From contig SEEL01000009.1 in NCBI GenBank assembly GCA_004144345.1, positions 1-64,000 on the forward strand: DNA of 64,000 bases, written 5' to 3'. The notes under the pieces were generated by a model. The model saw only the letters and a program-made list of their open reading frames with translations. It made no database searches and was not told where the DNA came from. The first letter of the stretch is position 1; every line of letters begins with the position of its first letter. Below, one piece after another: positions 11,866 to 30,418 of the stretch. A program made the position numbers and the translations under genes. This DNA comes from Hyphomicrobiales bacterium (GTDB lineage Bacteria; Pseudomonadota; Alphaproteobacteria; Rhizobiales; Devosiaceae).

Positions 11866-12429
11866 ATGCGTACTTCCCTTAGCAAAATCACCATGACGGC
11901 GGCGGCCGGCGTCCTCGGCTTCGCCCTGCTGTTCGGCGGCGCGGCCACCCCCAGCATTTCGCAGGACGCCGCGAGCGCCTCGTCGGAAGCGCCGTCGGCC
12001 GAGCCGGCAGCGCCGACCGAAGAGCAGATCCTCGCCGGCCTCGCGGTGTGGAAGGATCGCGGCGGCTGCTTCAACTGCCACGGCAATTTCGGCCAGGGCG
12101 GCGAAGGCGGGCACTTCCCGGCCGGCCCGAGCCTGCGCAAGACGCAGCTCGACCTCGAAACGCTGCACCTCGTGATCGCCTGCGGCCTGCCGACCACGAA
12201 GATGCCGTACAATCTCAAGGGCGCCTATGAGACCGACGATTTCTGCTACGGCGAAACCGGCGGCGTGCCGACCGATCTGAGCCCGGGCGCGACGCTCAGC
12301 AATGAAGAGATCACCGATCTCGTCGCCTATATGGAGGCCCGCATGGTGGGCCAGCGCCGCATCACCAAGGCGCAGTGCGTCGAGTATTTCGGCGATGCCA
12401 ACTACCCGGAATGCGCTGCCTACCGCTAA
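11866..12429 (+). CDS. Secreted c-type cytochrome of quinoprotein module A
   Basis: The start at 11866 gives 187 residues with a signal peptide (about 1-33). One haem-binding motif C-F-N-C-H lies at about residues 66-70. Candidate methionine ligands are in the TKMPYNL segment. Extra cysteines occur near CGLP, FCYGE and the C-terminus (QCVEYF, PECAAYR), a pattern shared with the module B cytochrome at 18463-19020 (MCGRP, RCYGM, ECQRYY, VCNMY). It is the likely electron acceptor of a PQQ dehydrogenase in the periplasm. It is convergent with the fused pentapeptide gene and separated from it by a terminator. The LuxR-type site lies 61 bp upstream. Confidence 0.9.
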   Translation: MRTSLSKITMTAAAGVLGFALLFGGAATPSISQDAASASSEAPSAEPAAPTEEQILAGLAVWKDRGGCFNCHGNFGQGGEGGHFPAGPSLRKTQLDLETLHLVIACGLPTTKMPYNLKGAYETDDFCYGETGGVPTDLSPGATLSNEEITDLVAYMEARMVGQRRITKAQCVEYFGDANYPECAAYR

Positions 12430-12451
12430 GCGGACCGCACAAGATCAAGCA

Positions 12452-12480
12452 AACGCCGCTCCCCAGGGGGCGGCGTTTTT
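12452..12480 (+). terminator. Rho-independent terminator after the module A cytochrome
   Basis: The GC-rich stem AACGCCGC/GCGGCGTT, with the CCCC-A-GGGG inner part, is followed by a run of T. It lies between the convergent cytochrome and pentapeptide-repeat genes and probably stops the plus-strand transcript. Confidence 0.85.
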
Positions 12481-12488
12481 GTTTGGGG

Positions 12489-13934
12489 TCAGGGAGCGGT
12501 GGTGCCGTCGGGCATCAGCGAGCCGGTGAAGATCGTGCCGGTCTGGATGCTGTCGCGCAGATTGCCCTTGTCGAAGCGGACATGGGTGAAATCGGCGTCG
12601 GTGAGGTCGGCCTCGCGCAAATCGGCGGCCTGGAAATCGGCGTCGCGGAAGACGGTGCCGGCAAGATTGGCCTGCCGCAGGATTGCCTCGTTGAAGGCGG
12701 AGCCCGGCGCCGTCACCTTGCTCAGATCGGCGCGAACGAGGCTCGCTTGGAAGAAGTAAGAGCCAGTGAGGTCGGCGCCGCCCAGTTTCGCATTGTTGAG
12801 GCGGGCCTGACCGAAATCGGCGGTGGTCATGGTGGCGCCGGTGAAATTGGCCTGCCGGATTTCAATGGAGCCGGCGCGGACGGCAGCGAGGTTGGCGCCG
12901 GAGAAATCGGTCTGCGCACCGCGGGCGCCGAACATGGTGACCTGGTGGAGGTCCGCACCGGTGAAATCGGTCTGGGTGAGATCGGTGAGATTGAGGTCGG
13001 CGCGCTCGAGATTGGCGCCGGCGAGTTTGGCCTGACGCAGCACCGCGCGGTGCAGATTGGTGGCGACGAGGGTAGCGCCGGTGAGGTCGGCGCCGGTCAG
13101 GTTGCGGCGGCGCAGATCGGCGCCGCTGAGGTCGCAGCCCACGCAATCATTGCTGAGGCCAGCAAGGAAGCGGCCGACGGTATCGTCGGCAGCGGGCTCG
13201 GGCGTGGGCTCAGCCGAGGCGACACCGGTGTCGGCGGGATAGGGCGCGTTCTGCGTCACGGTGATGGCGGCGGCGCTCTCGAAGGCGTTGAGCATAGGCC
13301 GACCCGAAGCGGGGTCGACCACGGCCTGGCCGGGCTTCAGATAGAACCGGGTTTCATTGACGGCGCTGACTTCGGCATCGCTGAAACCGCAGCGCTGCTT
13401 GATGTAGGTGCTCTCGATGGGCCCCTCGCCTTCGGCGCGCGGCAGGTCCTCGCAGCTCCAGCCCTCGACACCCAGCACGCCGCGCAGCAGGGGCGAGGCG
13501 GTGCGGTGGTCGTAGCGTTGGCGGGGATCGGCGGCCGGATCGGTATGGGCGCGGTAGCCGCGAATGCGGCCGGCATCATCGACGAGGAAGGACAGGATGG
13601 CCGGCTGCATGCCGACCTTGGTGAAGTTGAAGCGGATGGCCTGCACCGGGTTGCGCACGGCGCGGGCGAGATATTCGATGGTGTCGTCGTAGCGGAACCA
13701 GATTTCCCGCAGGCCGCTCGCTTCGGGCGTGCACTGGGCGAAATCGGCAAAACTCTGGAGCTGGGTGCTGGGCGGACCGCCATCGGTGCCGCAGGCGGGC
13801 TCAACGAAATCAGCGCCCAGACTGTCGATGGGCGTGCCGAACGGCACATCCCAGATCTTGGGCGGAATATCCTGAGCGAGGGCGGGGGTGGCGAGGAAGA
13901 GGGCCGCGAGAGCGGCGAGTAGACTGGGGCGCAA
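12489..13934 (-). CDS. Secreted fusion: uncharacterised quinoprotein-associated domain plus pentapeptide-repeat domain
   Basis: I place the start at TTG 13934, behind TGTGGAG, because it gives a clean signal peptide ending ATPALAQ. The GTG at 13967 would add 11 odd residues and lie in a hairpin. The protein has 481 residues. About residues 22-245 are a domain unknown to me with ACGTDGGPPS, FADFAQC and FRYDD. A Pro/Ala/Glu linker follows, then CVGCDL opens a pentapeptide-repeat solenoid of about 35 repeats (A-D/N-L-x-x) ending TGSLMPDGT. In module B the two halves are separate neighbouring genes (17712-18473 and 16951-17715). It follows the dehydrogenase gene on the same strand. It is probably a periplasmic scaffold or accessory for the quinoprotein, which is inference. 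Confidence 0.88.
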   Translation of the reverse strand: MRPSLLAALAALFLATPALAQDIPPKIWDVPFGTPIDSLGADFVEPACGTDGGPPSTQLQSFADFAQCTPEASGLREIWFRYDDTIEYLARAVRNPVQAIRFNFTKVGMQPAILSFLVDDAGRIRGYRAHTDPAADPRQRYDHRTASPLLRGVLGVEGWSCEDLPRAEGEGPIESTYIKQRCGFSDAEVSAVNETRFYLKPGQAVVDPASGRPMLNAFESAAAITVTQNAPYPADTGVASAEPTPEPAADDTVGRFLAGLSNDCVGCDLSGADLRRRNLTGADLTGATLVATNLHRAVLRQAKLAGANLERADLNLTDLTQTDFTGADLHQVTMFGARGAQTDFSGANLAAVRAGSIEIRQANFTGATMTTADFGQARLNNAKLGGADLTGSYFFQASLVRADLSKVTAPGSAFNEAILRQANLAGTVFRDADFQAADLREADLTDADFTHVRFDKGNLRDSIQTGTIFTGSLMPDGTTAP

Positions 13935-13954
13935 GGGAATCGCTCCACAAGAGA

Positions 13955-13981
13955 AACGGGGAGGCACGAAGCCTCCCCGTT
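13955..13981 (-). other. Intercistronic hairpin between dehydrogenase A and the fusion gene
   Basis: AACGGGGAGGC (13955-13965) and GCCTCCCCGTT (13971-13981) form a perfect 11-bp stem with a 5-base loop. It lies 9 bp after the dehydrogenase stop and 21 bp before the downstream start. It may stabilise the dehydrogenase mRNA or partly terminate, so that the downstream gene is expressed less. Confidence 0.7.
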
Positions 13982-13990
13982 CAATCAGGC

Positions 13991-15748
13991 TTAGTGGAGG
14001 CCGAACACCACAATTTGAGCAGCGTTCTGCATGTTGGCCAGCAGCGGGCTACCGCCCGTGCCACCACCGGTCAGGACGGCGACATACTGCTTGCCGTCGA
14101 GTTCGTAGCTGATCGGCGGCGCGCCGATGGGCGTACCGGTGTTGAACGACCAGACTTCCTTCATCGTGGCGCCGTCATAGGCGATCAGACGGCCATCCGA
14201 GCTACCGGCGAACACGAGGTCCGAACCAGTCGACAGCAGGCCCGAGTTGGTCGGGAAGTCGACGGTGGTCTGCGAGATCTTCTCGCCGGTTTCGGTGTTG
14301 ACGGCGATGATCAGGCCCGGGGCGTTCGGGAAGGCATAGTCGAACTTCCAGAAGTTACCGCCGCCCCAGATGCCGGGGTTGCCGGCGAGGTCGGTACGGG
14401 TCGTGTCGATGTGCTCATCGATCGACTGGCTGAAGCACGCATCGATCGCCTGGATGTAGGCAATCTTGGTGTCCGGGTTGTAGGTCGGCGGCCACCAGGT
14501 CGAGGTCTGCAGCGCCGGGCAGATGTTCTGCGCGGTCGCGGCGTCACCGACCTTCAGAGCGGCGTTCGGGGCGTATTCCTGGGTCAGCGAACCCGGGACA
14601 TATTCCACCGGCTTGCCGGTCTTGGGATCGAGGCCGGCGGTCCAGTTCGGATCGCGATAGGCGGTGGCGTAGATGAACGAGCCGTTGTTGCGGTCGAGCG
14701 TGTAGAAGAAGCCGTTACGCGAGAAGGTACCCATCACCTTGCGGCTCTCGCCGTTGTAGTTGATTTCGTACAGCATCTTCGGGTTGACGGTGTCGTAGTC
14801 CCAGGTCTCCTGCGGGATTTCCTGGAAGTACCACTTCAGCGCGCCGGTGTCGGCGTCGACCGAGACGGTCGAGTTCGTATAGAGGTTGTCGCCCGGACGG
14901 AACGCCGGATCAGCCCAGGGCTGCGACTCGCCGGTACCGAAGATCACCGAGTTGCTGTCGGCATCGTAGGACGGCGTGGTCCAGATACCGGCACCGCCGG
15001 TGAGGTAGGCGTTGTGATCGTCGGCCCAGGTTTCGTGGCCCGGTTCGCCCGGACCCGGGACGGCGTAGAAGCGCCACAGGAGCGAGCCATCTTCAGCGCT
15101 GAACGCACCGATCCACGAGCGGATGCCCGGGCCAGCGGCGCTGGTGATGATCTTGCTGTCGATGGCGAGCGTGCCGCCGGTGGCCATTTCGGCGCCGGGG
15201 GCATTGTCCGGACCGCGGGTGTCGACGTCCCAGATGATGTCGCCGGTGGCGTCATCGAGCTTGTAGAGGATCATGTCGTTGCGCGACACGTAATAGACCG
15301 CGTCGTCGAGCAGCGAGACCGAACCGAACTTGCTCGAGGCGCCCTGCCCGCTCAGATCGGCGAGCCAGACAATCTTGCCGGACTTGAGGTCGATCTTGCT
15401 GACCTGGTCCCAGGCGTTCTGGACGTACATGAAGCCGTCCTTGACCAGCGGCGTAGCGCGCTGGCTGGGGCTGACACCACCAACCGAAGCGGGCTGGCTG
15501 CCGCCGATGGCGGTCATGAACTTCACGTGGAGATCGCCCACGTTTTCCTTGGTGATTTCCTTGAGCGCGCTGTGCGAATAGGATTCGTAGCCGCCATAGG
15601 GGAGCAGCCAGTTCTGAGGCTCGGAAGCGGCGTTCTTCAGGCGGTCAAACGAGACTTCCTGGGCGACGGCCGCAGCGGCGAAGCCGGTCACGGTCAGGGC
15701 CAGCGCAGCTGCCACCATGGCAGAACGCGATAGATTCAAGATCTTCAT
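13991..15748 (-). CDS. PQQ-dependent dehydrogenase A (methanol/ethanol dehydrogenase family)
   Basis: This is a periplasmic quinoprotein of 585 residues with a signal peptide (about 1-30) and an eight-bladed propeller of tryptophan-docking repeats. The segment RPGDNLYTNSTVSVDADTG is typical of alcohol dehydrogenases of this family. Asp317 in WDYD is the expected catalytic base. Asp319, two residues on, occupies the position associated with lanthanide-dependent enzymes (XoxF/ExaF/PedH type). The adjacent Cys-Cys that contacts PQQ in classical enzymes is absent; the aligned stretch reads GSVSLLDDAVYYVSRND. Only two cysteines occur in the mature protein. The substrate is probably an alcohol or aldehyde, with electrons passing to a cytochrome c. 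It has a TGACCC-N4-GGGTCA site 122 bp upstream. Confidence 0.92.
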   Translation of the reverse strand: MKILNLSRSAMVAAALALTVTGFAAAAVAQEVSFDRLKNAASEPQNWLLPYGGYESYSHSALKEITKENVGDLHVKFMTAIGGSQPASVGGVSPSQRATPLVKDGFMYVQNAWDQVSKIDLKSGKIVWLADLSGQGASSKFGSVSLLDDAVYYVSRNDMILYKLDDATGDIIWDVDTRGPDNAPGAEMATGGTLAIDSKIITSAAGPGIRSWIGAFSAEDGSLLWRFYAVPGPGEPGHETWADDHNAYLTGGAGIWTTPSYDADSNSVIFGTGESQPWADPAFRPGDNLYTNSTVSVDADTGALKWYFQEIPQETWDYDTVNPKMLYEINYNGESRKVMGTFSRNGFFYTLDRNNGSFIYATAYRDPNWTAGLDPKTGKPVEYVPGSLTQEYAPNAALKVGDAATAQNICPALQTSTWWPPTYNPDTKIAYIQAIDACFSQSIDEHIDTTRTDLAGNPGIWGGGNFWKFDYAFPNAPGLIIAVNTETGEKISQTTVDFPTNSGLLSTGSDLVFAGSSDGRLIAYDGATMKEVWSFNTGTPIGAPPISYELDGKQYVAVLTGGGTGGSPLLANMQNAAQIVVFGLH

Positions 15749-15869
15749 GTAGATCCTCCACTCCTAGTTGTTGCCGCACTCTCTGAAGGGGAGCGCTGGA
15801 ACTGTTGTTGGTGGCCGCAGGCCACCGATAGAGAGGCGCAGGGTTCACGCGTTCCATCTTAAGCAGTCA

Positions 15870-15885
15870 TGACCCGAATGGGTCA
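15870..15885. promoter_or_regulatory. Candidate LuxR operator, site A2 (TGACCC-N4-GGGTCA)
   Basis: TGACCCGAATGGGTCA is a perfect 6+6 inverted repeat in the divergent region between dehydrogenase A (start 15748, minus) and the SMP-30-like gene (start 16027, plus). Its arms are identical to those of the site at 11789-11804. Either or both genes may be controlled. Confidence 0.7.
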
Positions 15886-16026
15886 GGCTTTGAGCAATGA
15901 GTGGCATAGGTAATTGATATGACCCCGCGTCGCGGGCGTCTCCGGCGCAGCATTTCCAATGACATGCATTCGTTTTCTCGGCGCTCCGCCCTGCGATGAT
16001 GGGGGGCGAAGAGGAGGATGTTTCAG

Positions 16027-16944
16027 ATGAAACTACACGCGATTGTGACTATTTCGACGTTGGCGCTGACCGTTGCGGCAGTGGGCGCGCAGGATCTCGC
16101 CAAACTGCAGATCGGCGACAACCAGCGCGTCTTTCCCGAAAGCATCACCAGCACGACGGACGGCACGATCTATGCGGGATCGATGCTGACCGGCCTGATC
16201 TTCAAGGGCAAGATGGGCGACGCTGCGGCGATCGCCTGGACGCAGCCGGCGACGGAAGGCCCGACGGGCGTGGCCGGCGTCTATGCCGACGAAAAGACCG
16301 GCCTGCTGTGGGCCTGCTATGTGGATCTGGCGGCGTTTGCCGGCGGCGAATCGCAGCCGTCGATCCTGCGCACCTACAACATTGCCGACGGCTCGCTCGC
16401 GGGCACCTATCCGCTGCCCGAAAAGAGCTTCTGCAACGACATCGCGACGGCTGAAGACGGCACGGCCTATATCGCCGATACGTCGGGCGCCCGCATCATG
16501 CGGCTGAAGCCCGGCGCGACCGAGCTCGACAGCTGGTATGCCGATGCGAGCCTTGGCGGCGTCGATGGCCTCGACTTCGATGACAGCGGCGTCCTCTATG
16601 CCAACAATGTGATGACCGGCACGCTGTTCCGCGTCGGCATCGGGGCGGATGGCGCGCCGACCGGCACGACCAATATCGCGACGTCGGCACCGCTTGCCGG
16701 TCCCGATGGCATGCGCTTTGGCGATGACGGCCGGCTGTATGTGGCCGAGAACGGCGCGGGCCGCGTGTCGGCGCTGACGATCGACGGCGACAAGGCCGAG
16801 GTGACGGTGCTGAAGGACGGCTTCGACATGCCGACGGCAGTGGCGCTGCTAGGCCATGAAGTGCTGGTGGGCGAAGCCCGCTTCTCGCAGATGCAGTCGG
16901 AAAACCCCGGCCAGTTCTACGTCTACGCCGTGCCGCTCCACTAA
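16027..16944 (+). CDS. Secreted SMP-30/gluconolactonase-like beta-propeller protein
   Basis: The start at 16027 lies 9 bases after AGGAGG. The ATG at 16018 touches the ribosome binding site and is less likely. The 305-residue protein has a short signal peptide ending VGAQ and repeated propeller motifs (NDIATAEDGTAYIADTSG, DGLDFDDSGVLYANN, GPDGMRFGDDGRLYVAENG). Asn and Asp in these loops match the metal-binding pattern of SMP-30-like lactonases. It could hydrolyse a lactone made by a dehydrogenase, or bind a metal. It sits head-to-head with dehydrogenase A and tail-to-tail with the module B pentapeptide gene (6-bp gap), so it joins the two modules. Confidence 0.85.
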   Translation: MKLHAIVTISTLALTVAAVGAQDLAKLQIGDNQRVFPESITSTTDGTIYAGSMLTGLIFKGKMGDAAAIAWTQPATEGPTGVAGVYADEKTGLLWACYVDLAAFAGGESQPSILRTYNIADGSLAGTYPLPEKSFCNDIATAEDGTAYIADTSGARIMRLKPGATELDSWYADASLGGVDGLDFDDSGVLYANNVMTGTLFRVGIGADGAPTGTTNIATSAPLAGPDGMRFGDDGRLYVAENGAGRVSALTIDGDKAEVTVLKDGFDMPTAVALLGHEVLVGEARFSQMQSENPGQFYVYAVPLH

Positions 16945-16950
16945 GAGCGT

Positions 16951-17715
16951 TTACTCATGGACGGTGCCATCAGGCATGGTGGCACCGGTCCAGACCGTTC
17001 CGGTCTGCTCGGTATCGGTGAAGCGCGAAAAGTGCAGGCGCGCATTTGAAAAATCGGCATTGGTCAGCGTCGCGCCGTTGAATTCGGAGCGCTCGAGCTT
17101 GGCATGATGCAGGCGCGCGCCGGTCAGGTCGACGTCGTTGGCCCTGATCTGGAACGAGTTGGTGTTGTCGAGAATGGCGCCGCGCATCTTGCTGCGGCGC
17201 AGATCGGCCTCGGCCAGCACGCTACCGGTAAAATCGACGCCATCGAGCGTGGCGCTCGACATGTTGATGCGCTGCAGGGCCGAGTTGCGCCATGTCGCGC
17301 CCGGCAGCTTGGCGCCCTGGAAATGCGCGGTCTGGGCGCGGGTATCGTCGAGATTGGCAGCGGCGAAATTGGCGCCGCCGGCCTGCGCCTCATAGAGCAG
17401 CGCGCCCTTGAGGTTGGCGCCGCTCAGATCGGCAAAGCGCAGATCGGCGAGATTGAGATTGGCGCGTTCGAGATTGGCACCGGCCAGGTTGGCCTTGCTG
17501 AGATTGGAACGATGGAACACGGCGCGCGTCAGATTGGCCCCGGCTAGATTGGCGCCGCTCAGATCGCGGTCCTTCATGCGCACGCCCACCAGATCGCAGC
17601 CCGGGCAATCCTTCGAGGTGCCGGCGATGAAGGCGTCGCGATCCCCAATCTCCTGGGCCGCACCCGATCCCGCAGCGAGCAGCACGAGTGCAAACGCGAC
17701 GGCGAGCTTGTTCAT
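16951..17715 (-). CDS. Secreted pentapeptide-repeat protein of quinoprotein module B
   Basis: A 254-residue protein with a signal peptide (about 1-20, ending GAAQ). Then comes CPGCDL and about 35 pentapeptide repeats (A-N-L-x-x, A-D-L-x-x), ending TGATMPDGT. Start, CxxCDL entry and MPDGT end match the C-terminal half of the fusion protein at 12489-13934. Its ATG overlaps the stop of the upstream gene by four bases, so the two are translated together. The right-handed solenoid usually makes protein contacts. No enzymatic residues are evident. It is the last gene of the module B operon. Confidence 0.92.
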
Positions 17716-18473
17716 CGATCAACTCCGGTATTCGCGGCGACAGAGAATTTGGGGTCGAGCAGCAGGAAGCGCGTGCCGGCGACAAAGCGGTCGCCGCGGA
17801 CTTCGCCGCTGAACGGGTCGATCATCTTCTGGCCGGCGCGACGCAGCAGACGGGTCTCCATGTGGAGCTTGACGCCATCCTTGGTCAGGCCAACGCAGTT
17901 CTGCTTGATCAGGCGCTGGGCGACGGGCGTTTCGCCCTCGCGCACCGGCAGGTCGACGCAGTCCCAGGGGTCGGGGGCATACATCTGATAGATGTAGTCG
18001 GCCACCTGATAGGCCGTGAAGCGGCCGCGCAAAGTGGTTCGATCATCGGTCACCGCCCGCACGCCGCGCAGTATCCCGCCGTCGTCGAAGAGCGCCGAGG
18101 CGATGATCTCGTGATTGCCGGCGGTGGTGCCGTGATAGCGGTTGGCGACGACCTGCAGATTGTGCGCGAGCGCCCAGTATTCCGCCTCGTCATCGTAGCG
18201 GAAGGTGATCTCGTGGAGGCCTGTCTCGGCCTCCACGGGGCACTGGGCGAAATCGCCGAAGCCCTTCATCGCCAGCGAGGGCGGGCCACCATTGGTGCCG
18301 CAGGCATATTGCTGAAACTCCACCGGTTGCTGGTCAAACGGCAGGCCGATGACCAGTTCGGAAAAGGTGGAGCGCGCCTTTGGTTCGGGGATCTCCTGGG
18401 CGGCCGCGTTGCCCAGCGCGAGCAGGGCAACGAGACCAGTCAGGCCCAGGCGTTGCAGCAGCTTATTCAGCAT
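17712..18473 (-). CDS. Secreted protein of unknown function, split counterpart of the fusion protein N-terminal domain
   Basis: The ATG at 18473 lies inside the end of the cytochrome gene (11-base overlap) and gives MLNKLL plus a signal peptide ending GNAAAQ. The 253-residue protein shares [17 protein letters not shown] and [12 protein letters not shown] with residues 50-100 of the fusion protein. Conserved cysteines recur in CVDLP and NCVGL. I recognise no known domain. Strict neighbourhood with a pentapeptide protein in both modules, once fused and once split, implies that the two domains interact in the periplasm. That is inference from gene fusion logic. Confidence 0.87.
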
Positions 18474-19020
18474 ACATATTGCAGACGGGCTTCTTGCCGT
18501 AATAGCGCTGGCACTCTTCGAGGCTCGGGCGCTCCGGCTTGCCATAGAGGTCCTGGATGATGAAGGCGACGATATCGTCGGCCTGCGAATCCGTCATCGG
18601 CTTGCCCTTGGGCGGGGCGGTATTGCCGAGATCGGCAAAGACCATGCCGTAGCAGCGATCGTCGACATAGGCGCGCTCATCATGGAACGCCATGAAGGTG
18701 CTCGGACGGCCGCACATGATAATTTCCTTGAGGATGTCCGCGTCGTATTCGAGGACACGCAGATTAGGACCCTTGGGGTTCTCGCCAATCTTTTCGCCAT
18801 TGCCGGACCAGCCGTGGCAGCCGGCACAATCGGAGCCGCGCCAGACCTTGAAGCCACGTTCGGCGGCCGCGGGATCGACAGCGGCGACTTCAACGACGGC
18901 CGGGGCTTCGCTGGACGAGGCTGTGTCCTGCGCAAAGGCGGGCGTGAAGACCGAAAGGCTGACGAGACCGGCAAGGACAAGTCCGAGACCGAGGCGGCGG
19001 GCGTGGGGGGCAAGGGACAT
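18463..19020 (-). CDS. Secreted c-type cytochrome of quinoprotein module B
   Basis: A 185-residue protein with a signal peptide (about 1-30, ending PAFAQ). The single haem motif C-A-G-C-H is at about residues 65-69. Possible Met ligands lie in FMAFHDE and elsewhere, and further cysteines match those of the module A cytochrome. It lies between the dehydrogenase B gene and the two accessory genes on one strand, so the order is dehydrogenase, cytochrome, unknown domain, pentapeptide. It probably takes electrons from dehydrogenase B toward the terminal oxidase. Confidence 0.92.
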   Translation of the reverse strand: MSLAPHARRLGLGLVLAGLVSLSVFTPAFAQDTASSSEAPAVVEVAAVDPAAAERGFKVWRGSDCAGCHGWSGNGEKIGENPKGPNLRVLEYDADILKEIIMCGRPSTFMAFHDERAYVDDRCYGMVFADLGNTAPPKGKPMTDSQADDIVAFIIQDLYGKPERPSLEECQRYYGKKPVCNMYAE

Positions 19021-19052
19021 AGTGGGTCGGTATCCGTAATTGAAAGTTTGAA

Positions 19053-19080
19053 GGGCATGGCCGCTGACGCGACCATGCCC
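19053..19080 (-). other. Intercistronic hairpin after dehydrogenase B
   Basis: GGGCATGG (19053-19060) pairs with CCATGCCC (19073-19080) in the gap between the dehydrogenase B stop and the cytochrome start. The position mirrors the hairpin at 13955-13981 behind dehydrogenase A, although the sequences differ. Confidence 0.55.
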
Positions 19081-19087
19081 GATTTGC

Positions 19088-20803
19088 TTAGAGCGTGAAG
19101 ACGTAGAGAGTCGAGGACTTCTGCATGTTCACGTAGGTGTCAGCCTTGGGGTCGGTACCCATGGCGGCGTATTTGTGGAAGTCGAGCGGGATGCCGCCCG
19201 GGCCCACCATGATGGCGATGTACTGCTTGCCATCGACGGTGAAGGTGATCGGCGGCGCGTCGATCGTGGTGCCGAGGTTGATGTTCCACAGGCGCTCGAG
19301 CGTGGTGTCGTCGACGGCGAAGAAGTCGCCGTTGGTCGAACCACCGAACACGATACGGCCGGCGGTGGCGATGGTGCCGCCGCGACCCGTGCTGGTGAGG
19401 TCGAGCTTCTTGGCAACGGTGCCGGTCGCCACGTCGATGGCGGTCAGCGAACCGGTCAGCACTTCACCTTCCGGACGGGTGGCGAAGGAGCAACCCTCGA
19501 TGCCCAGGCCGTAGTTCAGCTTGGTGATCGGGCTGTAGGACGTCGGGTACATGTTCACGCCGCCCTCGATATACGGGCAGTAGGACTGATCCGGCGCATC
19601 CGGCCCGAACAGGCTGGCGTTGAGGCGCGTCTCGGGGATGTAGGTCTGCACATCCTTGGTGGCATCGTACTCAACCGGCATGCCGGTCTTGGGGTCGATA
19701 CCGGCGGTCCAGGTGACCTTGTCCGAGTACTGCGAACCGTTGATGTAGGCACCCGTGCCGGCGTCGAGGTTGTAGAAGAAACCGTTGCGGGCGAAGTGGC
19801 CCACGACCTTGGTTTCCTTGCCACGGACTTCGGTGGTGTAGAGCTGCATCGTGCCGGTTTCGTCGAAGTCCCAGGCATCGTTCGGCGTGTACTGGAAGTG
19901 CCAGTTGATCTTGCCGGTGGCGGCGTCAACCGCGACGGTGGAGTTCGAGTAGAGGTTGTCGCCGGGGCGCTTCTGCGGCTCGAAATCCGGGTACGGGTTA
20001 CCGATACCGTAGACGAGTTCGTTGCGTTCGACGTCGTACGAGCCGGTCACCCAGGTAGCAGCGCCACCGACCTTCCAGGCCTCGTCCTTCCAGCTCTCGT
20101 GACCCGGTTCGCCCGGACCCGGGACGGTCCAGAACGTCCAGATCAGATCGCCAGTCTCGGGATCGCGGGCTTCGAGGCGGCCGCGCATCGGGCCGTCGCC
20201 ACCGCCAGGTCCGACGATGATCATGCCGTCGATGGCGAGCGGCGCCATCGAGAAGTACTCGACCGGGTTCTGCTGGGTTTCGATCTCGAACTTGACCTCG
20301 CCCGTCACCTTGTCGGTGCGGATGAAGCGGCCATCGGGGCTCATCGAGTAGATGGAATCGCCATAGAGCGCGACGCCGCGGTTGTTGAGCAGGCCCGTTG
20401 CCAGTTCAGGATCGGTCTTGGGATCCATGATCCAGTCGATGTAACCGCGGTCGCCCTGGGTCATATCGATGCGGTAGACACGGCCCCAGCCGTCGGTGGT
20501 GAACATGATGCCGTCTTCGACGAGCGGGGTGCCCTGAAGGGCGCTCGAGGCGAAGGACGAACCCTGCGAGGGGGGCGCCATCGGCACGGCAAAGGCGAGC
20601 TTGAGGCCCTTGACGGTGTCCTTGTTGATCTCATCCAACGTCGAATAACGGTTGGAATCGTAGGTCATGTTGTTGCTGAGCCAGTTGCCCGGCTCGGGAT
20701 TGACCAGTCGTTCGAAGGTAACGTCGGCGGCGGATGCCGACAGCGCGGTGCCAAGCAAAAGCGCACCGGCGATCGCGATGCGCGATCGGTTCAGGAAAGA
20801 CAT
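19088..20803 (-). CDS. PQQ-dependent dehydrogenase B (methanol/ethanol dehydrogenase family)
   Basis: The start at 20803 follows GAGGAGATATAT and gives 571 residues with a signal peptide ending SASA. It carries the family segments WVTGSYDVERNELVYGIGNP and RPGDNLYSNSTVAVD. Asp312 in WDFD is the likely catalytic base, and Asp314 is the extra acidic residue linked to lanthanide binding. At the place of the usual Cys-Cys before NRG it reads ATGLLNNRG, so the vicinal disulfide is missing here too. It heads the module B operon (cytochrome, unknown domain, pentapeptide). Sequence similarity to dehydrogenase A is moderate, so the two probably differ in substrate. Confidence 0.92.
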   Translation of the reverse strand: MSFLNRSRIAIAGALLLGTALSASAADVTFERLVNPEPGNWLSNNMTYDSNRYSTLDEINKDTVKGLKLAFAVPMAPPSQGSSFASSALQGTPLVEDGIMFTTDGWGRVYRIDMTQGDRGYIDWIMDPKTDPELATGLLNNRGVALYGDSIYSMSPDGRFIRTDKVTGEVKFEIETQQNPVEYFSMAPLAIDGMIIVGPGGGDGPMRGRLEARDPETGDLIWTFWTVPGPGEPGHESWKDEAWKVGGAATWVTGSYDVERNELVYGIGNPYPDFEPQKRPGDNLYSNSTVAVDAATGKINWHFQYTPNDAWDFDETGTMQLYTTEVRGKETKVVGHFARNGFFYNLDAGTGAYINGSQYSDKVTWTAGIDPKTGMPVEYDATKDVQTYIPETRLNASLFGPDAPDQSYCPYIEGGVNMYPTSYSPITKLNYGLGIEGCSFATRPEGEVLTGSLTAIDVATGTVAKKLDLTSTGRGGTIATAGRIVFGGSTNGDFFAVDDTTLERLWNINLGTTIDAPPITFTVDGKQYIAIMVGPGGIPLDFHKYAAMGTDPKADTYVNMQKSSTLYVFTL

Positions 20804-20965: not shown

Positions 20966-21778
20966 TCAGGCCCGGCGTACGTTCCGGATGGCGCCGGCCT
21001 GCGGATTGTAGCCGTGCGCGGCGAGCAAAAAGGCCAGCAAGGCACAGCCGGCGACCACGCCGAGGGAGAGCCAATTCAGCTGGCCGTAGGCGGCGAAGCG
21101 GATGAGCTCGATGGCGTGGGTGAAAGGGTTGGCCTGCGAGATGTAGTAGATCGGATAGGCGCCGGCCTCGCGCAGCTTCCACAGCGGATAGAGCGCGGAG
21201 GAGAGGAAGAACATCGGGAAGACGACGAAGTTCATCATGCCGGCGAAGTTCTCGATCTGGGGCGTGTAGACCGAGACGAGCAGGCCGATGGAGCCGAGCA
21301 GCAGCCCGGCCATGATGACGGCCGGGATAATGGTCAGCCAGCTCCAGGCGGGCATGGAGATGCCGAACAGGGCAGCGAGGATGAGGAACGCATAGACCTG
21401 CAGCAGCGACAGCATGGTCGCCGCGACGATCTTGGCAAAGAGCAGGAAACTGCGCGGCAGCGGGCTGACGAGCATGACGCGCATGACACCCGCCTCGCGG
21501 TCGTAGACCATAGAGAGCGCCGACTGCATGCACTGGAAGAGGATGACGATCCCGATGAGGCCCGGGATGATGTATTCCTGGTAGGGCGTGTAGGTCCGGT
21601 AGGGCGGGATGATCGAGAGGCCCAACAGGTCGTGGAGGCCCGTCGCGAAGACGAGCAGCCACAGCGACGGACGGATCAGCGCCGACAGCAGCCGCTCCGT
21701 CTGACGCAGGAATTTCAGGACTTCACGGCGCGTTATGGCGAGCAGGCCCAGCCACAGCGCGCCGATCGTTACTTGCAT
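20966..21778 (-). CDS. ABC-2 type permease of the PQQ-associated (PedA1A2BC/Lut-like) ABC system
   Basis: A 270-residue membrane protein with about six transmembrane segments and the ABC-2 pattern (YDREAGVMRVMLVSPLPRSFLL, then FPMFFLSSALYPLW and ANPFTHAIELIR). It is the fourth gene of a minus-strand operon with cupredoxin-like, beta-propeller and binding-protein genes, each overlapping the next by a few bases. Its ATPase partner is most likely the product of 26988-27746, encoded in the divergent operon. Systems of this type are required for lanthanide-dependent growth in Pseudomonas and Methylobacterium. Assigning that role here is inference. Confidence 0.88.
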   Translation of the reverse strand: MQVTIGALWLGLLAITRREVLKFLRQTERLLSALIRPSLWLLVFATGLHDLLGLSIIPPYRTYTPYQEYIIPGLIGIVILFQCMQSALSMVYDREAGVMRVMLVSPLPRSFLLFAKIVAATMLSLLQVYAFLILAALFGISMPAWSWLTIIPAVIMAGLLLGSIGLLVSVYTPQIENFAGMMNFVVFPMFFLSSALYPLWKLREAGAYPIYYISQANPFTHAIELIRFAAYGQLNWLSLGVVAGCALLAFLLAAHGYNPQAGAIRNVRRA

Positions 21779-22953
21779 AGATGCTCCGGCTCATCGGTTC
21801 CGAGACTATCGAGTGTGTTCACCTGATGCTCGAAGCCGTCAAGCGGGGCCGCCGCGATGACTGCGTCTTCCGTGGAAAGCGTGATGGGCATTCGCATCTG
21901 GCCGTCCCAAGGGCGGAAGTTCAGTTGGTAGCCCTTGGAGCCATCGACGTTGAAGCGCGGACCGCGCAGCCAGGCGTCGATTTCGTCGGGCTCGGTCTTC
22001 CGCGACTTGCCATAGGCGGTCATCACGGACTTCGCGGCGACCCAGGTCGACCAGTCGGCGCCGTTCATGTGCAGATCGCCGGTGAGCTTCTGGAAGCGGG
22101 AGCTGACCTGCGCGGCGCCATCACGCTCCCAGGTCCACTGCCATTCGGCGGCGTCGAGGCCGGTGGAACCGATGACGGGACGCGGCAACTGCGTGGCGTA
22201 AGGCAGATAGCGGGCGTAATCGCCCTGCGTGTCGGCGATATAGATGACGTCGTAGTCGACGCCGCCGGTGACCAGCAGGGTATTGTTCTCTTCCATGCTC
22301 TCGGAATCGGTCGAGAGCGTCACCTGCCGCGTGTCCGCAATGCTGAGGCGCATGCGTTCGGCGGAGGCGACGAAGGTATCGGCCAGCACCTTGTCGCGCG
22401 GCGCCTGTCCATAAAGGACAAGCACGCGGGTCCAGTTGCGCACGCGCAGGAGCTGGACGAAGGAATCGGCGAGCTGCCGGTCCGACGCAGCGGTGTGGAG
22501 GAGATTGGGATAGCAGCGCTCGCGCAGGAAATCCTCGGACGCGGTGGCGTTGATCAGGGTAACCTTGAGGTCCCTGGTCTGCGCGGCGACCTGGTCGAGA
22601 ATATCGGCTTCGAGATCGGTGATGATGAAGCGTTCGCCGGCGCCGACCATGTCGTTGACCTTGGCGACGAGGCCCGCAACGTCGGTGGCCTGCTGCGCAT
22701 CCAAAGTGGCCTTGAAGCCACCAGCTTCGCCGAGGATGGCGAGATCTTCCAGCCCGAGGACCGCGCCCGGTTCGGGGCGGCGCAGCGGATCAAGGACGAT
22801 GCCGAGATACTGGCGGGTGTCGTAACGGGCATCGTTTTCGAGGCTGAGATAGCCGATCTTGACGTCGCGCGGCGCAGCGGCGTCCTGCGCGACAGCGGCG
22901 AGCGGGAGCAGCGCGAACGCTGCCCCCATAAGCCAGGGCGAAAGCCTAGGCAT
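21769..22953 (-). CDS. Periplasmic binding-protein-like component of the PQQ-associated ABC system
   Basis: A 394-residue protein with a signal peptide (about 1-22, ending AVAQ). The fold is that of branched-chain-amino-acid-type periplasmic binding proteins, and I recognise it as the substrate-binding protein of the PQQ-dependent alcohol dehydrogenase ABC system. Motifs include KIGYLSLENDARYDTRQY near the N-terminus and NFRPWDGQMRMPI near the C-terminus. It overlaps the beta-propeller gene upstream by 8 bases and the permease gene downstream by 10. Homologues are PedA1 in Pseudomonas and LutA in Methylobacterium. The cargo (lanthanide complex, PQQ or another molecule) is unproven. Confidence 0.88.
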   Translation of the reverse strand: MPRLSPWLMGAAFALLPLAAVAQDAAAPRDVKIGYLSLENDARYDTRQYLGIVLDPLRRPEPGAVLGLEDLAILGEAGGFKATLDAQQATDVAGLVAKVNDMVGAGERFIITDLEADILDQVAAQTRDLKVTLINATASEDFLRERCYPNLLHTAASDRQLADSFVQLLRVRNWTRVLVLYGQAPRDKVLADTFVASAERMRLSIADTRQVTLSTDSESMEENNTLLVTGGVDYDVIYIADTQGDYARYLPYATQLPRPVIGSTGLDAAEWQWTWERDGAAQVSSRFQKLTGDLHMNGADWSTWVAAKSVMTAYGKSRKTEPDEIDAWLRGPRFNVDGSKGYQLNFRPWDGQMRMPITLSTEDAVIAAAPLDGFEHQVNTLDSLGTDEPEHLCK

Positions 22954-23935
22954 GAATCATCACCGTGTGCGGCACGCGGCCGACGGGGATGGTCTGGACC
23001 GGCTCCAGCGTGGCCATGTCGACGACGGTGATGTCGTCGGAAAGGCCGTTCGAGACGATGGCAACCGATTCATCGGGCGACAAATCCACCGACCAGGCGC
23101 GCTTGCCCACGAGGATGTACTTGATGATCTCGTGGGTGGTGCCGTCGATGACGGCGACATGGTTGGCGCGGCCAAGGCTGAGCAGGATCTTGCTGCCATC
23201 CTTGGTGACGGCCATGCCGACCGGTGTCACGTCCTCGGGCTTGAAACCCGGCGGAACGAAGAACAGCGAGTCGCCAACGATCTCGTTAGTGGCGCGATCG
23301 ATGATGAAGATCTCGCTCGACAGCTCGCACGACACCCAGACCTGCTTGCCGTCCGGCGTGAAGATGAAGCGGCGCGGGCGCGTACCGACCATGATGTTCT
23401 TGATCACGGCACCGGAAGCGACATCGACCACGTGCACCATGTCGGCGACTTCCGACGTGACGTAGACCGTCTTGCCGTCTTCGCTGACGATGACGCCCTC
23501 GGGCTCGGCGCCGGTGGGCACCTGAACCATCGAGACGCGGCTTTCGAGATCGATCAGTTCGAGCTGCGAATATTCCTCGTTCGACACCCAGACACCCTTG
23601 TAGTCGGGCGTGAAGGCGAAGACCTCGGGGCTCGGGCCGGTCGGCACAGTGTCGACCACTTCGAGCGTCGCAACGTCGATGATGTCGATGGCATCATCGT
23701 CACCACACGCAACGTAAAGCTGCGTACGGTCCTGGTTGAAGTGCATGTCGCGCGGGCGCTTGGAGGTCGGGATACGCTTGACCTCGACATAGGATTTGTC
23801 GAGCACAACGACCTCGTTGCCCTTTTCGAGCGACACGAAGATGTTGCCCGTTCCGGCCGCGAAGGCGGGGCGGGCGACGAGAGCTGCGGCGCTAAGCGCG
23901 GCAGCTCCCTGCAAAATAGCGCGACGCGTGGTCAT
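22946..23935 (-). CDS. PQQ-associated YVTN-type beta-propeller protein with Tat signal
   Basis: A 329-residue protein starting MTTRRAILQG, a likely twin-arginine signal, followed by a hydrophobic stretch ending AFAA. The mature part is a seven-bladed propeller of 40-residue YVTN repeats (for example DRTQLYVACGDDDAIDIIDVATLEVVDTVP with its family spacing). This is the beta-propeller protein typical of PQQ-dependent catabolism clusters, related to PedA2 and the Lut propeller, for which metal binding has been reported. It sits between cupredoxin-like and binding-protein genes with overlapping ends. Export by Tat suggests folding or metal loading in the cytoplasm. Confidence 0.9.
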   Translation of the reverse strand: MTTRRAILQGAAALSAAALVARPAFAAGTGNIFVSLEKGNEVVVLDKSYVEVKRIPTSKRPRDMHFNQDRTQLYVACGDDDAIDIIDVATLEVVDTVPTGPSPEVFAFTPDYKGVWVSNEEYSQLELIDLESRVSMVQVPTGAEPEGVIVSEDGKTVYVTSEVADMVHVVDVASGAVIKNIMVGTRPRRFIFTPDGKQVWVSCELSSEIFIIDRATNEIVGDSLFFVPPGFKPEDVTPVGMAVTKDGSKILLSLGRANHVAVIDGTTHEIIKYILVGKRAWSVDLSPDESVAIVSNGLSDDITVVDMATLEPVQTIPVGRVPHTVMIHA

Positions 23936-24354: not shown

Positions 24355-24506
24355 GACGTCGTCGATTCCCTTATTTTTAATGAGAAATTCCGGTTCATGG
24401 TGGGCCGGGCGACCGGGCGGTTCAACGGCCGGTCCGCAATAGTCTATATTGATATGGGCAATGTGTCGCAGTGCTAGCTCAAGGTCAAATTCACTGGAGG
24501 ATGCTC
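24355..24506. promoter_or_regulatory. Divergent promoter region of the two ABC operons
   Basis: This 152-bp gap separates the cupredoxin-like gene (minus) from the binding-protein gene (plus) and is the only place for promoters of both operons. It is AT-richer than its surroundings (TTATTTTTAATGAG near 24371). I see no copy of the TGACCC repeat here, so control by the LuxR-type gene at 10613 is not suggested. Confidence 0.5.
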
Positions 24507-25496
24507 ATGAAAAGCGCCATTCGCACCATAATCGCGACCGCCGCCCTCGCCGGAGCGATGATCGCTCCCGGCTTCGCCGCCGACCCACTCAAGCTGACGC
24601 TTGGCGCGATGGAAAACGGCACCGTGTTCTGGGAACTCGAGGCGATGAAAGCGCTCGAGCTCGACAAGAAGCACAATCTAGAACTCGAGGTCCGGCCGCT
24701 GGCCGATGCCAAGGCCGGGCAGATTGCCCTGCAGGCGGGTGAGGTCGACGTGATCCTCTCCGACTTCGTCTATGCCTCGATCCAGCGCAATAGCGGCAAC
24801 GAGCTGACCTTCGTGCCGCACTCGCTGGCCGTGGGCGGCCTGATCGTCGATCCGGCGGCCAACATCACCAAGATCGAGGACCTGAAGGGCAAGACGCTGG
24901 CCATTTCGGGCAGCCCGGTCGACAAGAGCTATGTGATCCTGCAGGCCTATTACAACAGCGTGACCGGCACGGCCCTCGCCGACGATGCCACGGTGCGCTT
25001 TGGCGCCCCGCCGCTGATCAACGAACTGATCACCACCGGCCAGGCGCAGGCCTCGCTGAATTTGTGGAACTGGAACGCCCGGGCCAAGCTCGCCGGCAAG
25101 ACCGAACTGATGTCGGTGTGGGACATGCTCAAGGCGCTGGGCGTCACCGAACAGCCGCCGCTCCTCGGCTGGCTGTTCAGCGACAAGACCGCCGCCGACA
25201 AGACCGCCGCGCTGACAGCGTTCCTCGATGCGTCGTTCGACACCAAGGCGGTGCTGCTGAGCGATGACGCGATCTGGGACACGATCCGCCCGGTGATGAA
25301 CGTCAAGGACAATGACGCGCTGTTCGCGCAGCTGCGTGACGACTACCGCCTCGGCATCGTGAGGGGCTATGATCCCAACAATATCAGCGCGGCGCAGCAG
25401 AGCTTCGAGCTGATGGCGAAATATGGTGGGGCGGACGTGGTTGGCGATGTGCCGACGATGGCCGACGGCACCTTCTGGAAGGGATACAGCAAATAA
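24507..25496 (+). CDS. ABC transporter substrate-binding protein (SsuA/TauA/NMT1-like)
   Basis: The start at 24507 lies 6 bases after CTGGAGG and gives 329 residues with a signal peptide ending GFAA. The two-lobed periplasmic binding fold of the NMT1/sulfonate/taurine class is supported by GAMENGTVFWELEAMK, GEVDVILSDFV and KGKTLAISGSPVDKSY. It forms a transporter with the permease and ATPase that follow. The operon then continues into the ATPase of the PQQ-associated system, so this transporter may serve quinoprotein metabolism (for example a metal chelate, thiamin-like or sulfonate compound). The substrate is not readable. Confidence 0.88.
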   Translation: MKSAIRTIIATAALAGAMIAPGFAADPLKLTLGAMENGTVFWELEAMKALELDKKHNLELEVRPLADAKAGQIALQAGEVDVILSDFVYASIQRNSGNELTFVPHSLAVGGLIVDPAANITKIEDLKGKTLAISGSPVDKSYVILQAYYNSVTGTALADDATVRFGAPPLINELITTGQAQASLNLWNWNARAKLAGKTELMSVWDMLKALGVTEQPPLLGWLFSDKTAADKTAALTAFLDASFDTKAVLLSDDAIWDTIRPVMNVKDNDALFAQLRDDYRLGIVRGYDPNNISAAQQSFELMAKYGGADVVGDVPTMADGTFWKGYSK

Positions 25497-25525
25497 GCTT
25501 CCTGCCTGCGGGCAAGCCACTGACC

Positions 25526-25555
25526 AAGGTCGCGCGTAAGAACACGCGCGACCTT
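25526..25555 (+). other. Intercistronic hairpin between binding protein and permease
   Basis: AAGGTCGCGCG (25526-25536) and CGCGCGACCTT (25545-25555) form a perfect 11-bp stem with an 8-base loop, ending directly before the GTG at 25556. Such hairpins often protect binding-protein mRNA and lower permease expression. Here it would also mask the permease initiation region. Confidence 0.65.
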
Positions 25556-26293
25556 GTGCTTGAGGCGCTCTCCCTGCCGCTGCTGCTGGCGATCTGGCAG
25601 CTGCTGGCGATGATTTTTCCCGGCCGCCTGTTCCCCTCGCCCATCGCCGTGGCGGTGGAACTGTGGGATCTGACGCTGCACGGCAAGCTGCTCGCCGATC
25701 TGGGCAAGACGCTGATGCGCGCGATCACGGCCTTCCTGCTTGCCATGACCGTCGGCACTGCCCTCGGCATCATTTTCGGCCGGGTGCGCTGGGCCGACCG
25801 GCTGTTCTCCACCTGGGTGGTGGTTGGCCTCAATCTGCCGGCGATCGTGATCGCCATCGCGCTCTATATCTGGCTGGGGCTGACCGAGACGGCCCTGCTG
25901 ATTGCGGTGGTGCTCAACAAGGTGCCGCTGGTGATCATCAATATCCGCGAAGGCGTGCGCTCGTTCTCGCGCGACTATGACGAGCTGGGCGCGGCCTTCC
26001 GCCTGCCCTTCTGGCGGCGGCTGCGACTGATCTTCATCCCGCAGCTGATGCCGTTCGCGCTCGCCGCGGCCCGTACCGGCCTGTCGCTCATCTGGAAGAT
26101 CGTTCTGGTGTTCGAGGTGCTCGGGTCGGATGGCGGCGTCGGTTTCCGGGTCTCGGTGTTTTTCCAGTTCTTCGACATCACCGGCATCCTTGCCTATACG
26201 ACAGCCTTCATCCTCGTGGTGCTGGCGTTCGAATACCTCGTGATGCGGCCTCTTGAACGCAGGATTTTGAGATGGCGAGCGGACCCGGCATAA
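25556..26293 (+). CDS. ABC transporter permease (SsuC/TauC-like)
   Basis: A membrane protein of 245 residues from GTG 25556, with six predicted helices. The inner-membrane EAA loop is recognisable in YDELGAAFRLPFWRRLRLIFIPQLMP. The start is uncertain: no ribosome binding site precedes the GTG, and the frame is open upstream through the hairpin at 25526-25555 as far as the binding-protein stop, without ATG, GTG or TTG. Initiation may depend on coupling. It pairs with the ATPase at 26272, whose start lies inside this gene (22-base overlap). Confidence 0.85.
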   Translation: MLEALSLPLLLAIWQLLAMIFPGRLFPSPIAVAVELWDLTLHGKLLADLGKTLMRAITAFLLAMTVGTALGIIFGRVRWADRLFSTWVVVGLNLPAIVIAIALYIWLGLTETALLIAVVLNKVPLVIINIREGVRSFSRDYDELGAAFRLPFWRRLRLIFIPQLMPFALAAARTGLSLIWKIVLVFEVLGSDGGVGFRVSVFFQFFDITGILAYTTAFILVVLAFEYLVMRPLERRILRWRADPA

Positions 26294-28723: not shown

Positions 28724-28988
28724 GGGAGGGGCTCCTATCGAGCCTATCAGATAACGTTACCGGCCAGGGGGGAAGTATGTATTTAGTCGCAGTTTGAACG
28801 TTCCTAAAGGGCTTGACCGCAGATGTGATCGCGATCGCGGCGGGCGGCATGGAGCCGGGAACAGAGTTGATACCAATGAGTTTTGCGGCAGTTCCCGGCG
28901 GCCCGGCATATCGGAGCCGCCAATCTTGTTCATTGGAATCGCTGCAGCAGGCCCGTGCCAGTTTCAGCAACGAGGAAGCCGAGGAAAC

Positions 28989-29792
28989 ATGCAGGATATC
29001 GACGTCAGCACCGCCAACGCGGCGCCAAGGGGTAATGCCGTGCTCGGAACGCCGGCAGAAATCAGAGATTTTGCGCCGGTCCTCAAATGGCTGCTCGTGA
29101 ATTTGCTGGTCGCGATCGCGCTGATCGTCCTGTGGTCGCTGGGGCTGATCCAGCAGGTGCTGGAGACCGACCACACGCGCGTGGCGCTGGTGATCTTCGC
29201 GATCTTTGCGCTGACCTCGCTGCATTGCTTGTATCAGACCTGGGTGACCTCGCGTGACCTCGTCACGGCGCGGCATGTGAGCGCCGCGGTGAACGCCGCC
29301 GACGCCATTCCGGTACAATTGGCCGATGGCCGCGTGATGCTGGATGGGCAGGTGCTAGAAGCCGGCGTGATTTCGACCCACATCGCCAATTTGATCCGCA
29401 AGGCCTCGCTCGGCCAGGGCGGCGGCTTCGACCAGACGGTGCTGCTGCGCTCGCTGGCCGACCGGCTGCGGTCGCGCGAGAAGCTGGGCCTGTTCGTGTC
29501 GGAAGCGCTGCTGCGCCTGGCGCTGCTGGGCACCGCCATCGGCTTCATCCTGATGCTTATCCCGCTGTCGGGACTTAGCTCGTTCGACGCCGAGACGCTG
29601 CGCGGCGCGCTCGCCGGCATGACCGCCGGCATGGCGATTGCGCTCAACGTGACGGTGACAGGCATCGGCGCGGCGCTGGTGCTGAAGTTCCAGTATTACC
29701 TGCTGGACGAGGCGATCGGCGAACTGTTCGAGATCATCACCGAGACGACCGAAGTCTCCGTCCTTCCCCGCATCGGCAAAGCTGAAGGATGA
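28989..29792 (+). CDS. MotA/TolQ/ExbB-like membrane protein of an uncharacterised three-gene unit
   Basis: The start at 28989 is preceded by GAGGAA. The 267-residue protein has four predicted membrane segments (about 27-50, 58-78, 172-192, 211-235). The last two carry the MotA/TolQ/ExbB proton-channel pattern: LALLGTAIGF, then ALAGMTAGMAIALNVTVTGIGAALVLKFQYY. Between helices 2 and 3 lies a cytoplasmic region of about 90 residues. It overlaps the ExbD-like gene by four bases. It has no flagellar, Tol or TonB neighbours and no Zorya genes, so the driven partner is unknown. Confidence 0.82.
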   Translation: MQDIDVSTANAAPRGNAVLGTPAEIRDFAPVLKWLLVNLLVAIALIVLWSLGLIQQVLETDHTRVALVIFAIFALTSLHCLYQTWVTSRDLVTARHVSAAVNAADAIPVQLADGRVMLDGQVLEAGVISTHIANLIRKASLGQGGGFDQTVLLRSLADRLRSREKLGLFVSEALLRLALLGTAIGFILMLIPLSGLSSFDAETLRGALAGMTAGMAIALNVTVTGIGAALVLKFQYYLLDEAIGELFEIITETTEVSVLPRIGKAEG

Positions 29793-30418
29793 ACGACGAG
29801 AGCCTGTTCACCGGGGCCAGCGACGACGGCACGTTCGTTCCCTTCACGGACATCCTGTTCAACGCGCTGCTCGGCTTTGCGGTGATGCTGTTCATCGCGT
29901 TCGCGCTGATCAAGCCGGACGACAAGACCGGCAATATCAACATCATGGCGGAGATGCTGATCACGGTCACCTGGCCGGACAACAGCCCCGACGACGTCGA
30001 TGTGTATGTGCGCGATCCGCAGGACAACATCGTCTGGTACAACACGCTGGACCGCGGCTTCCTGCATCTGGATCGCGACGATCGCGGCGAATATCTCGAC
30101 CAGGTCATGGTTGATGGCGAAAAGGTGACGTTCCCGCTGAACCAGGAGACGGTGACCGTGCGCGGCATCGTGCCGGGCGAGTACACGGTGAACGTGTATG
30201 CCTTCCTCAATCCGTCGGGCATGCCGATCCCGGTGTCGGTGAAGGTTGAAAAACTCAATCCGACCGTAAAGGTGATCTACTACGAGTCGATGAAGCTGAC
30301 CTATGTGGGCGATGAGAGGACGGCGATCCGCTTCTCCATGGATGCGGATGGCGAAATCACCGATCTCAACACCATGCAGGATTCCCTCGTCGACGCCGTG
30401 AGGGCCCCGAAAAAATGA
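29789..30418 (+). CDS. ExbD/TolR-like protein with a DUF2135-like beta-sandwich domain
   Basis: A 209-residue protein with one N-terminal membrane helix (about residues 16-40). Asp21 in PFTDILFN sits where ExbD/TolR/MotB carry their proton-accepting aspartate. The periplasmic part (about 45-190) resembles DUF2135-type domains (WPDNSPDDVDVYVRDPQDN, RDDRGEYLD, PGEYTVNVYAFL) and not the usual ExbD or OmpA-like domain. The putative proton channel would therefore drive or sense something through an unusual domain. Its coding frame overlaps both neighbours by four bases. Confidence 0.78.
   Translation: MNDESLFTGASDDGTFVPFTDILFNALLGFAVMLFIAFALIKPDDKTGNINIMAEMLITVTWPDNSPDDVDVYVRDPQDNIVWYNTLDRGFLHLDRDDRGEYLDQVMVDGEKVTFPLNQETVTVRGIVPGEYTVNVYAFLNPSGMPIPVSVKVEKLNPTVKVIYYESMKLTYVGDERTAIRFSMDADGEITDLNTMQDSLVDAVRAPKK

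Follow-up and report, generated by a model that had tools for sequence, protein, structure and literature searches.

Comparison of gene neighbourhoods and of the encoded proteins showed that a putatively secreted domain, here called N, and a pentapeptide-repeat solenoid (PPR) belong together, and that N is tied to one clade of PQQ alcohol dehydrogenases. The pair is a real, conserved accessory system that adds a partner domain to the known theme of PPR genes beside PQQ dehydrogenases and, judging from sequence, is probably a dedicated helper of one branch of these enzymes. N and PPR may well work as two parts of a single accessory unit in the periplasm, serving one dehydrogenase clade whose members mostly carry D-x-D. 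That PPR genes accompany PQQ dehydrogenases has been published before (PedD/QedB); what this analysis adds is the N family, the finding that it is confined to one clade of the enzymes, and its repeated fusion to PPR.

The window, a 64,000-nucleotide stretch of contig SEEL01000009.1, contains two quinoprotein modules, each with open reading frames (ORFs) for a PQQ dehydrogenase, a cytochrome c, a putatively secreted N domain, and a PPR. As the original prediction had described, N and PPR form a single fused ORF in module A and two genes in module B, where they overlap by 4 bases (17712-17715). The features were located as follows:

11866-12429, + strand (convergent): module A cytochrome c with one CxxCH (PF13442 E = 9e-5, below the cut-off; signal-peptide-like start by eye)
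12489-13967, - strand: module A N-PPR fusion (ORF; N domain at about 13230-13886; alternative start at 13934)
13991-15748, - strand: module A PQQ dehydrogenase (D-x-D present, vicinal Cys pair absent, Glu at the Asn261 position)
16018-16944, + strand: SMP-30/NHL-type propeller between the modules
16951-17715, - strand: module B PPR (PF00805; CxxC entry, MPDGT near the end; signal-peptide-like start by eye)
17712-18473, - strand: module B N-domain protein (four conserved Cys, without a known family; signal-peptide-like start by eye)
18463-19020, - strand: module B cytochrome c with one CxxCH (PF00034 E = 1.5e-7)
19088-20803, - strand: module B PQQ dehydrogenase (D-x-D present, vicinal Cys pair absent)
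20966-23935, - strand: ped-type genes for a PedC permease, a PQQ-system substrate-binding protein (below the cut-off), and a PQQ-associated beta-propeller

The two copies of N share 41% identity over 198 aa (E = 1e-42), the dehydrogenases 36% over 621 columns, and the cytochromes 33% over 162 columns, so the modules are old paralogous sets and not the product of a recent duplication; the fusion protein matched the split PPR with 137 bits (phmmer). Within the window's own genome, PF00805 gave 8 matches, all in the two PPR stretches of the modules, and the two full-length TIGR03075 matches were the window dehydrogenases (two further matches, both in one other frame, were partial). Because PPR and full-length dehydrogenase matches fell only at the modules, the pairing of N-PPR with these enzymes is not due to chance. 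A 298-bit relative of the SMP-30/NHL-type propeller adjoined the module in another locus (L042).

The idea that N belongs to a known family was rejected after both window copies, 52 members of the N family, and 5 distant members had been scanned with Pfam and NCBIfam and the PDB had been searched by profile and by fold. The split N protein had no match at E <= 1, and all matches of the fusion protein lay in its PPR half. Weak matches were scattered among the 52 members: Cu_amine_oxidN3 in three (best E 0.06) and GanS, a galactooligosaccharide-binding protein (E 0.006), YaeR (0.086), and DUF6723 (0.091) in one each. No PDB chain matched the N profile at E <= 1. The AlphaFold2 model of N (227 residues, 52-row alignment) was mixed alpha-beta with a mean pLDDT of 90.5 and a pTM of 0.86, and searching the PDB with this fold returned 411 matches up to E 10, none of them at E <= 0.001. 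The same search with the model of the fusion protein gave 50 matches at E <= 0.001, which showed that the method works for the solenoid half only. The best-looking candidate among the fold matches listed, DUF4309 (probability 0.44, TM 0.22, E 0.3), was not accepted as a homologue of N. Once the sequences had been aligned to the N profile, four cysteines proved to be kept in 83, 83, 83, and 82 of 83 proteins, the one gap (L147) arising where the alignment ends before that Cys; N likely carries two disulfides. Nothing in N was recognised as a metal-binding motif, and signal-peptide-like starts, read by eye, suggest that it is secreted.

N was found in 31 of the 136 genomes of the window's family, and in at least 9 of 297, 8 of 385, and 4 of 398 genomes sampled from the order, class, and phylum, respectively; these samples overlap, each includes the window's own genome, and with at most 7-10 candidates scored per genome N may be missed. 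A single-protein scan of genome contigs added 1 relative. The neighbourhood census covered 83 N genes from 44 genomes in fetched stretches, with ORFs called mechanically (some run on at the N-terminus) and contig L144 left out as a repeat of the L009 contig. A PQQ dehydrogenase lay within 3 kb of 76 of the 83 N genes and within 8 kb of 77, and 73 of the 76 linked enzymes were on the strand of N. The original prediction had named two outcomes that would speak against it; given this linkage N is not common away from quinoprotein genes, and the Pfam, NCBIfam, and PDB searches returned no confident match to a known unrelated family. A TIGR03075 match at E <= 1e-60 was present in 30 of the 31 N-bearing genomes of the window's family vs 33 of the 105 N-less ones (Fisher p = 1.5e-11), and in the 31st (G102) the dehydrogenase is cut by a contig end (L078). 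N had no match in 33 of the 63 dehydrogenase-bearing genomes of this family.

Of the six N genes without a dehydrogenase within 8 kb, four lie at contig ends (L084, L136, L138, and L057, the last with a dehydrogenase fragment). At L145, on a 10-kb contig, N is clustered with a cytochrome, a PPR, and, by eye, PQQ-associated genes, with no dehydrogenase; L154 has neither dehydrogenase nor PPR within about 8 kb of N, and at L052 the dehydrogenase is 6.6 kb away and belongs to another clade. PPR was fused to N or within 8 kb of it at 74 of the 83 genes, the nine others being L139-L142, L147, L052, L154, and the contig-end loci L043 and L136. At L139-L142 and L147, N accompanies a dehydrogenase and a cytochrome (the N and cytochrome ORFs of L140 share 4 bases), and the PPR genes of these five genomes are elsewhere. 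Conversely, PPR adjoins PedE-type enzymes at L165 and L167, where no N was seen, so the two halves are separable. Only 54 of the 83 N genes had a window-like cytochrome within 8 kb; docking to the cytochrome is thus not a general feature, unless divergent cytochromes were missed. Genomes with several copies mostly keep the sets together (10 N genes in G288, 7 in G496, and 5 in G780), and the possession of its own N and PPR by most dehydrogenase paralogues of the clade fits a dedicated partner and not a general housekeeping factor.

The partnership of N and PPR and their tie to the quinoproteins, which had been proposed from the two modules, gained support from this wide co-occurrence and clade-specific linkage, from repeated fusion, and from co-variation within genomes. 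Fusions accounted for 15 of the 83 N genes, in 7 genomes, with N first in all 15. The fused or split state requires four changes on a quick tree of N, of which starred branches force three; gains and losses cannot be told apart. Of the 57 split PPR genes, 25 share the strand of N and 32 run against it, so their adjacency survives strand changes and is more than read-through. Across 68 loci and 87 same-genome pairs, paralogue distances were correlated within genomes between N and dehydrogenase (rho 0.47; 8 of 2000 shuffles as high), N and PPR (rho 0.53; 16 of 2000), and PPR and dehydrogenase (rho 0.21; 23 of 2000), a co-variation that joint duplication of linked genes alone could produce. Linked blocks are inherited together, and N-PPR might on that account be an old neighbour passed on with the dehydrogenase clade and sharing no function with it; four changes of fusion state in one fixed order, adjacency kept through strand changes, and a linkage retained across several families within the order and the class make such hitch-hiking very improbable.

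The usual ratio of one N per linked dehydrogenase, the shared strand, and the fusions would also suit a structural subunit that stays permanently in the mature enzyme, serving stability or membrane attachment, in contrast to a transient assembly factor. AdhS, the small third subunit of the alcohol dehydrogenase of acetic acid bacteria, offers a parallel: it is a small protein that partners a PQQ dehydrogenase and its cytochrome in the periplasm, as N would. However, the N profile matched no PDB chain at E <= 1, where such subunits could appear. We consider a permanent subunit unlikely, and assembly or docking remains our preferred role for N-PPR.

A quick FastTree of 99 dehydrogenases separated the 76 N-linked enzymes from 23 others (20 N-less, 2 PedE-type, and that of L052) with a support of 1.0, and the enzymes of the five PPR-less loci L139-L142 and L147 grouped on the N-linked side. 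The 20 N-less enzymes, hand-picked from the window's family in 13 cases from genomes with N and in 7 from genomes without it, showed neither N nor PPR in flanks of about 4-6 kb per side (L192, whose enzyme is incomplete, on one side only). The window dehydrogenases scored 174 and 204 bits with PF01011, over the cut-off of 26.7, and 367 and 404 bits with TIGR03075, under the curated cut-off of 480; the N-linked, PPR-less enzyme of L140 reached 537 bits and passed it.

The PQQ dehydrogenases that N singles out as a clade also show unusual changes in the active site. The D-x-D motif, treated as diagnostic of lanthanide enzymes in the part of PMC11996626 available to us, occurs in both window dehydrogenases (WDYD and WDFD) and in 68 of the 76 N-linked ones (62 of the 70 whose locus includes PPR and 6 of 6 whose locus does not); it is not specific to the clade, being present in 19 of the 20 N-less enzymes as well. 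Among the exceptions, Glu or Asn replaces the first Asp in L131, L135, and L152, and both Asp are missing from L053 4419-6029, L062 4473-6083, L066 6305-8032, L079 8708-10363, and L086 8728-10293. These five Asp-less dehydrogenase-like proteins lie within 3 kb of N, a second dehydrogenase in the same locus has both residues, and they are possibly empty partners. The vicinal Cys pair was found in 15 of the 76 N-linked enzymes and was absent from 61, including both in the window; among the 20 N-less enzymes, the pair is present in only 3. Since 15 N-linked enzymes keep the pair, we rejected as a rule the idea that N compensates for a missing vicinal disulfide. For the metal ligands we assume the numbering and roles of Glu177 and Asn261 in MxaF. 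The Glu177 position is non-acidic in ten N-linked enzymes, and eight of these show a reciprocal change to Glu (6) or Asp (2) at Asn261 (window 13991-15748, L048, L055, L056, L151, L153, L157, and L158); of the other two, L079 carries Ser/His and the last enzyme is gapped at both sites.

The prevalence of D-x-D among the linked enzymes raises the question of whether N is a periplasmic carrier, held by PPR, that supplies the dehydrogenase with a lanthanide or with PQQ. MxaJ, XoxJ, and PedG are periplasmic accessory proteins of PQQ dehydrogenases for which a role in maturation is proposed, according to the portion of PMC12997753 at hand, and N differs from them in matching no periplasmic binding-protein family (Pfam) or fold (E <= 0.001). 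Among the N loci, an MxaJ-like ORF (binding-protein-like, by eye) was seen in L052 alone, as expected if N took over such a function. However, 17 of the 20 N-less dehydrogenase loci equally lack an MxaJ-like gene, so its absence beside N is not telling for a replacement of MxaJ; together with four cysteines that look like disulfides and the failure to recognise a metal-binding motif, this makes a carrier function distinctly improbable, and we return to assembly or docking as the favoured reading.

The second half of the pair is a pentapeptide solenoid. Both window PPRs matched PF00805 (E = 4e-45 and 3e-50; 151 and 168 bits vs a cut-off of 20.2). The model of the fusion protein (near-mature chain, 15 rows) had a pLDDT of 90.4, with 92-98 in the solenoid blocks and below 50 in the linker (residues 224-230), and does not give the packing of N against the solenoid. 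Its 50 PDB matches at E <= 0.001 comprised pentapeptide, Rfr-domain, Qnr, MfpA, AlbG, and synthetic solenoid proteins and NleL, with HetL, among other pentapeptide proteins, and synthetic solenoids ranking best. The window PPRs share the solenoid fold with Qnr and MfpA and differ from them in their signal-peptide-like starts and in scoring 42.5 and 55.2 bits with the Qnr model NF033086, far below its cut-off of 240. Across 77 PPR-containing ORFs, a set that includes the duplicate contig L144 and some ORFs over-extended by mechanical calling, the CxxC entry occurred in 73 and an [MLIV]P[DN]G end in 41, so both are frequent without being universal.

The window PPRs end in MPDGT plus 3 residues and lack the CxxCPxDW end of two plasmid-borne relatives. 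PPR matched 309 plasmid records; of four inspected, two adjoin a PQQ dehydrogenase, one lies elsewhere, and one is without annotation. N had no match on plasmids. In Gemmobacter fulvus and Azospirillum brasilense, PPR directly follows an annotated PQQ dehydrogenase, and its CPG-x-DL entry resembles the CPGCDL of the window; no N was seen at these loci, the PPR ends in CxxCPxDW vs MPDGT, and the second Asp is present in neither of the two dehydrogenases, unlike most N-linked enzymes. In two N-bearing genomes (L178 in G323 and L179 in G301), a PPR gene apart from N lies about 6 kb or less from MxaJ-like (by eye) and metallo-hydrolase-like genes, with no dehydrogenase found in the fetched stretch.

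The premise that no role had been described for a pentapeptide protein in PQQ dehydrogenase function needs a correction. PedD (PP_2673/PA1981) is a pentapeptide protein of undefined role beside the PQQ alcohol dehydrogenase PedE/ExaA, its expression follows the ped cluster and is co-regulated with PedE, and its truncation in P. putida U impaired growth on several short-chain alcohols, as summarised in the sections of the review PMC12997753 available to us; QedB is the pentapeptide member of a small operon that includes qedA1 (PMC12875217, likewise in part). The window PPRs resemble both as pentapeptide solenoids next to a PQQ alcohol dehydrogenase. The available parts of these two papers make no mention of a domain like N, literature searches on pentapeptide proteins with PQQ, quinoproteins, or methanol dehydrogenase listed PedD/QedB papers and a thylakoid proteome paper, and those on dehydrogenase clades, the disulfide, and XoxJ yielded nothing on N. 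A role of PedD outside catalysis, for example on the cell surface or in the matrix of biofilms, was suggested from its predicted localisation and alcohol induction (PMC12997753, same sections), and N-PPR could in the same manner act outside catalysis, merely co-regulated with alcohol oxidation. Such a role would hardly confine N to one dehydrogenase clade among the enzymes compared, or make it co-vary with its dehydrogenase within genomes, and we judge it improbable.

The likeliest role that we infer for N-PPR is that of a dedicated assembly or docking partner. By binding the dehydrogenase and/or its cytochrome, N would help to assemble or dock them, and the rod formed by PPR would be a rigid platform that holds N or the partner. 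The comparisons speak neither for nor against the docking scaffold for dehydrogenase and cytochrome that the original prediction had suggested. Since N keeps its dehydrogenase and cytochrome in the five loci without a nearby PPR, N appears to be the enzyme-associated part and PPR the added one; the placement of N at the enzyme with PPR as holder is the weakest step of this model. It is rather doubtful that N-PPR forms a new class of assembly factor with a fold outside the PDB, which would provide cofactor loading and acceptor contact for the lanthanide-motif branch (where most enzymes lack the vicinal disulfide), replace the J-type protein, and have been fused to the solenoid several times. 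For the assembly, metal loading, and cytochrome coupling of PQQ dehydrogenases, the pair offers a direct handle.

Two further gene groups were observed near the modules. ABC-importer-like genes stand beside the PQQ cluster in the window (24471-26293, + strand; matches of the permease to SsuC-type models were below the cut-off) and in L009 (191-3509, + strand, by eye). A three-gene set encoding a TolQ/ExbB-like, an ExbD-like (by eye), and a small membrane-type protein is present in the window (28794-31050, + strand) and in L009 (3506-5530, - strand); it occurred in 21 of the 108 loci scanned, a count in which L144 is a duplicate contig and L143 shows two of the three genes at a contig end, and all 21 were N-module loci, with none among the 20 N-less dehydrogenase loci.
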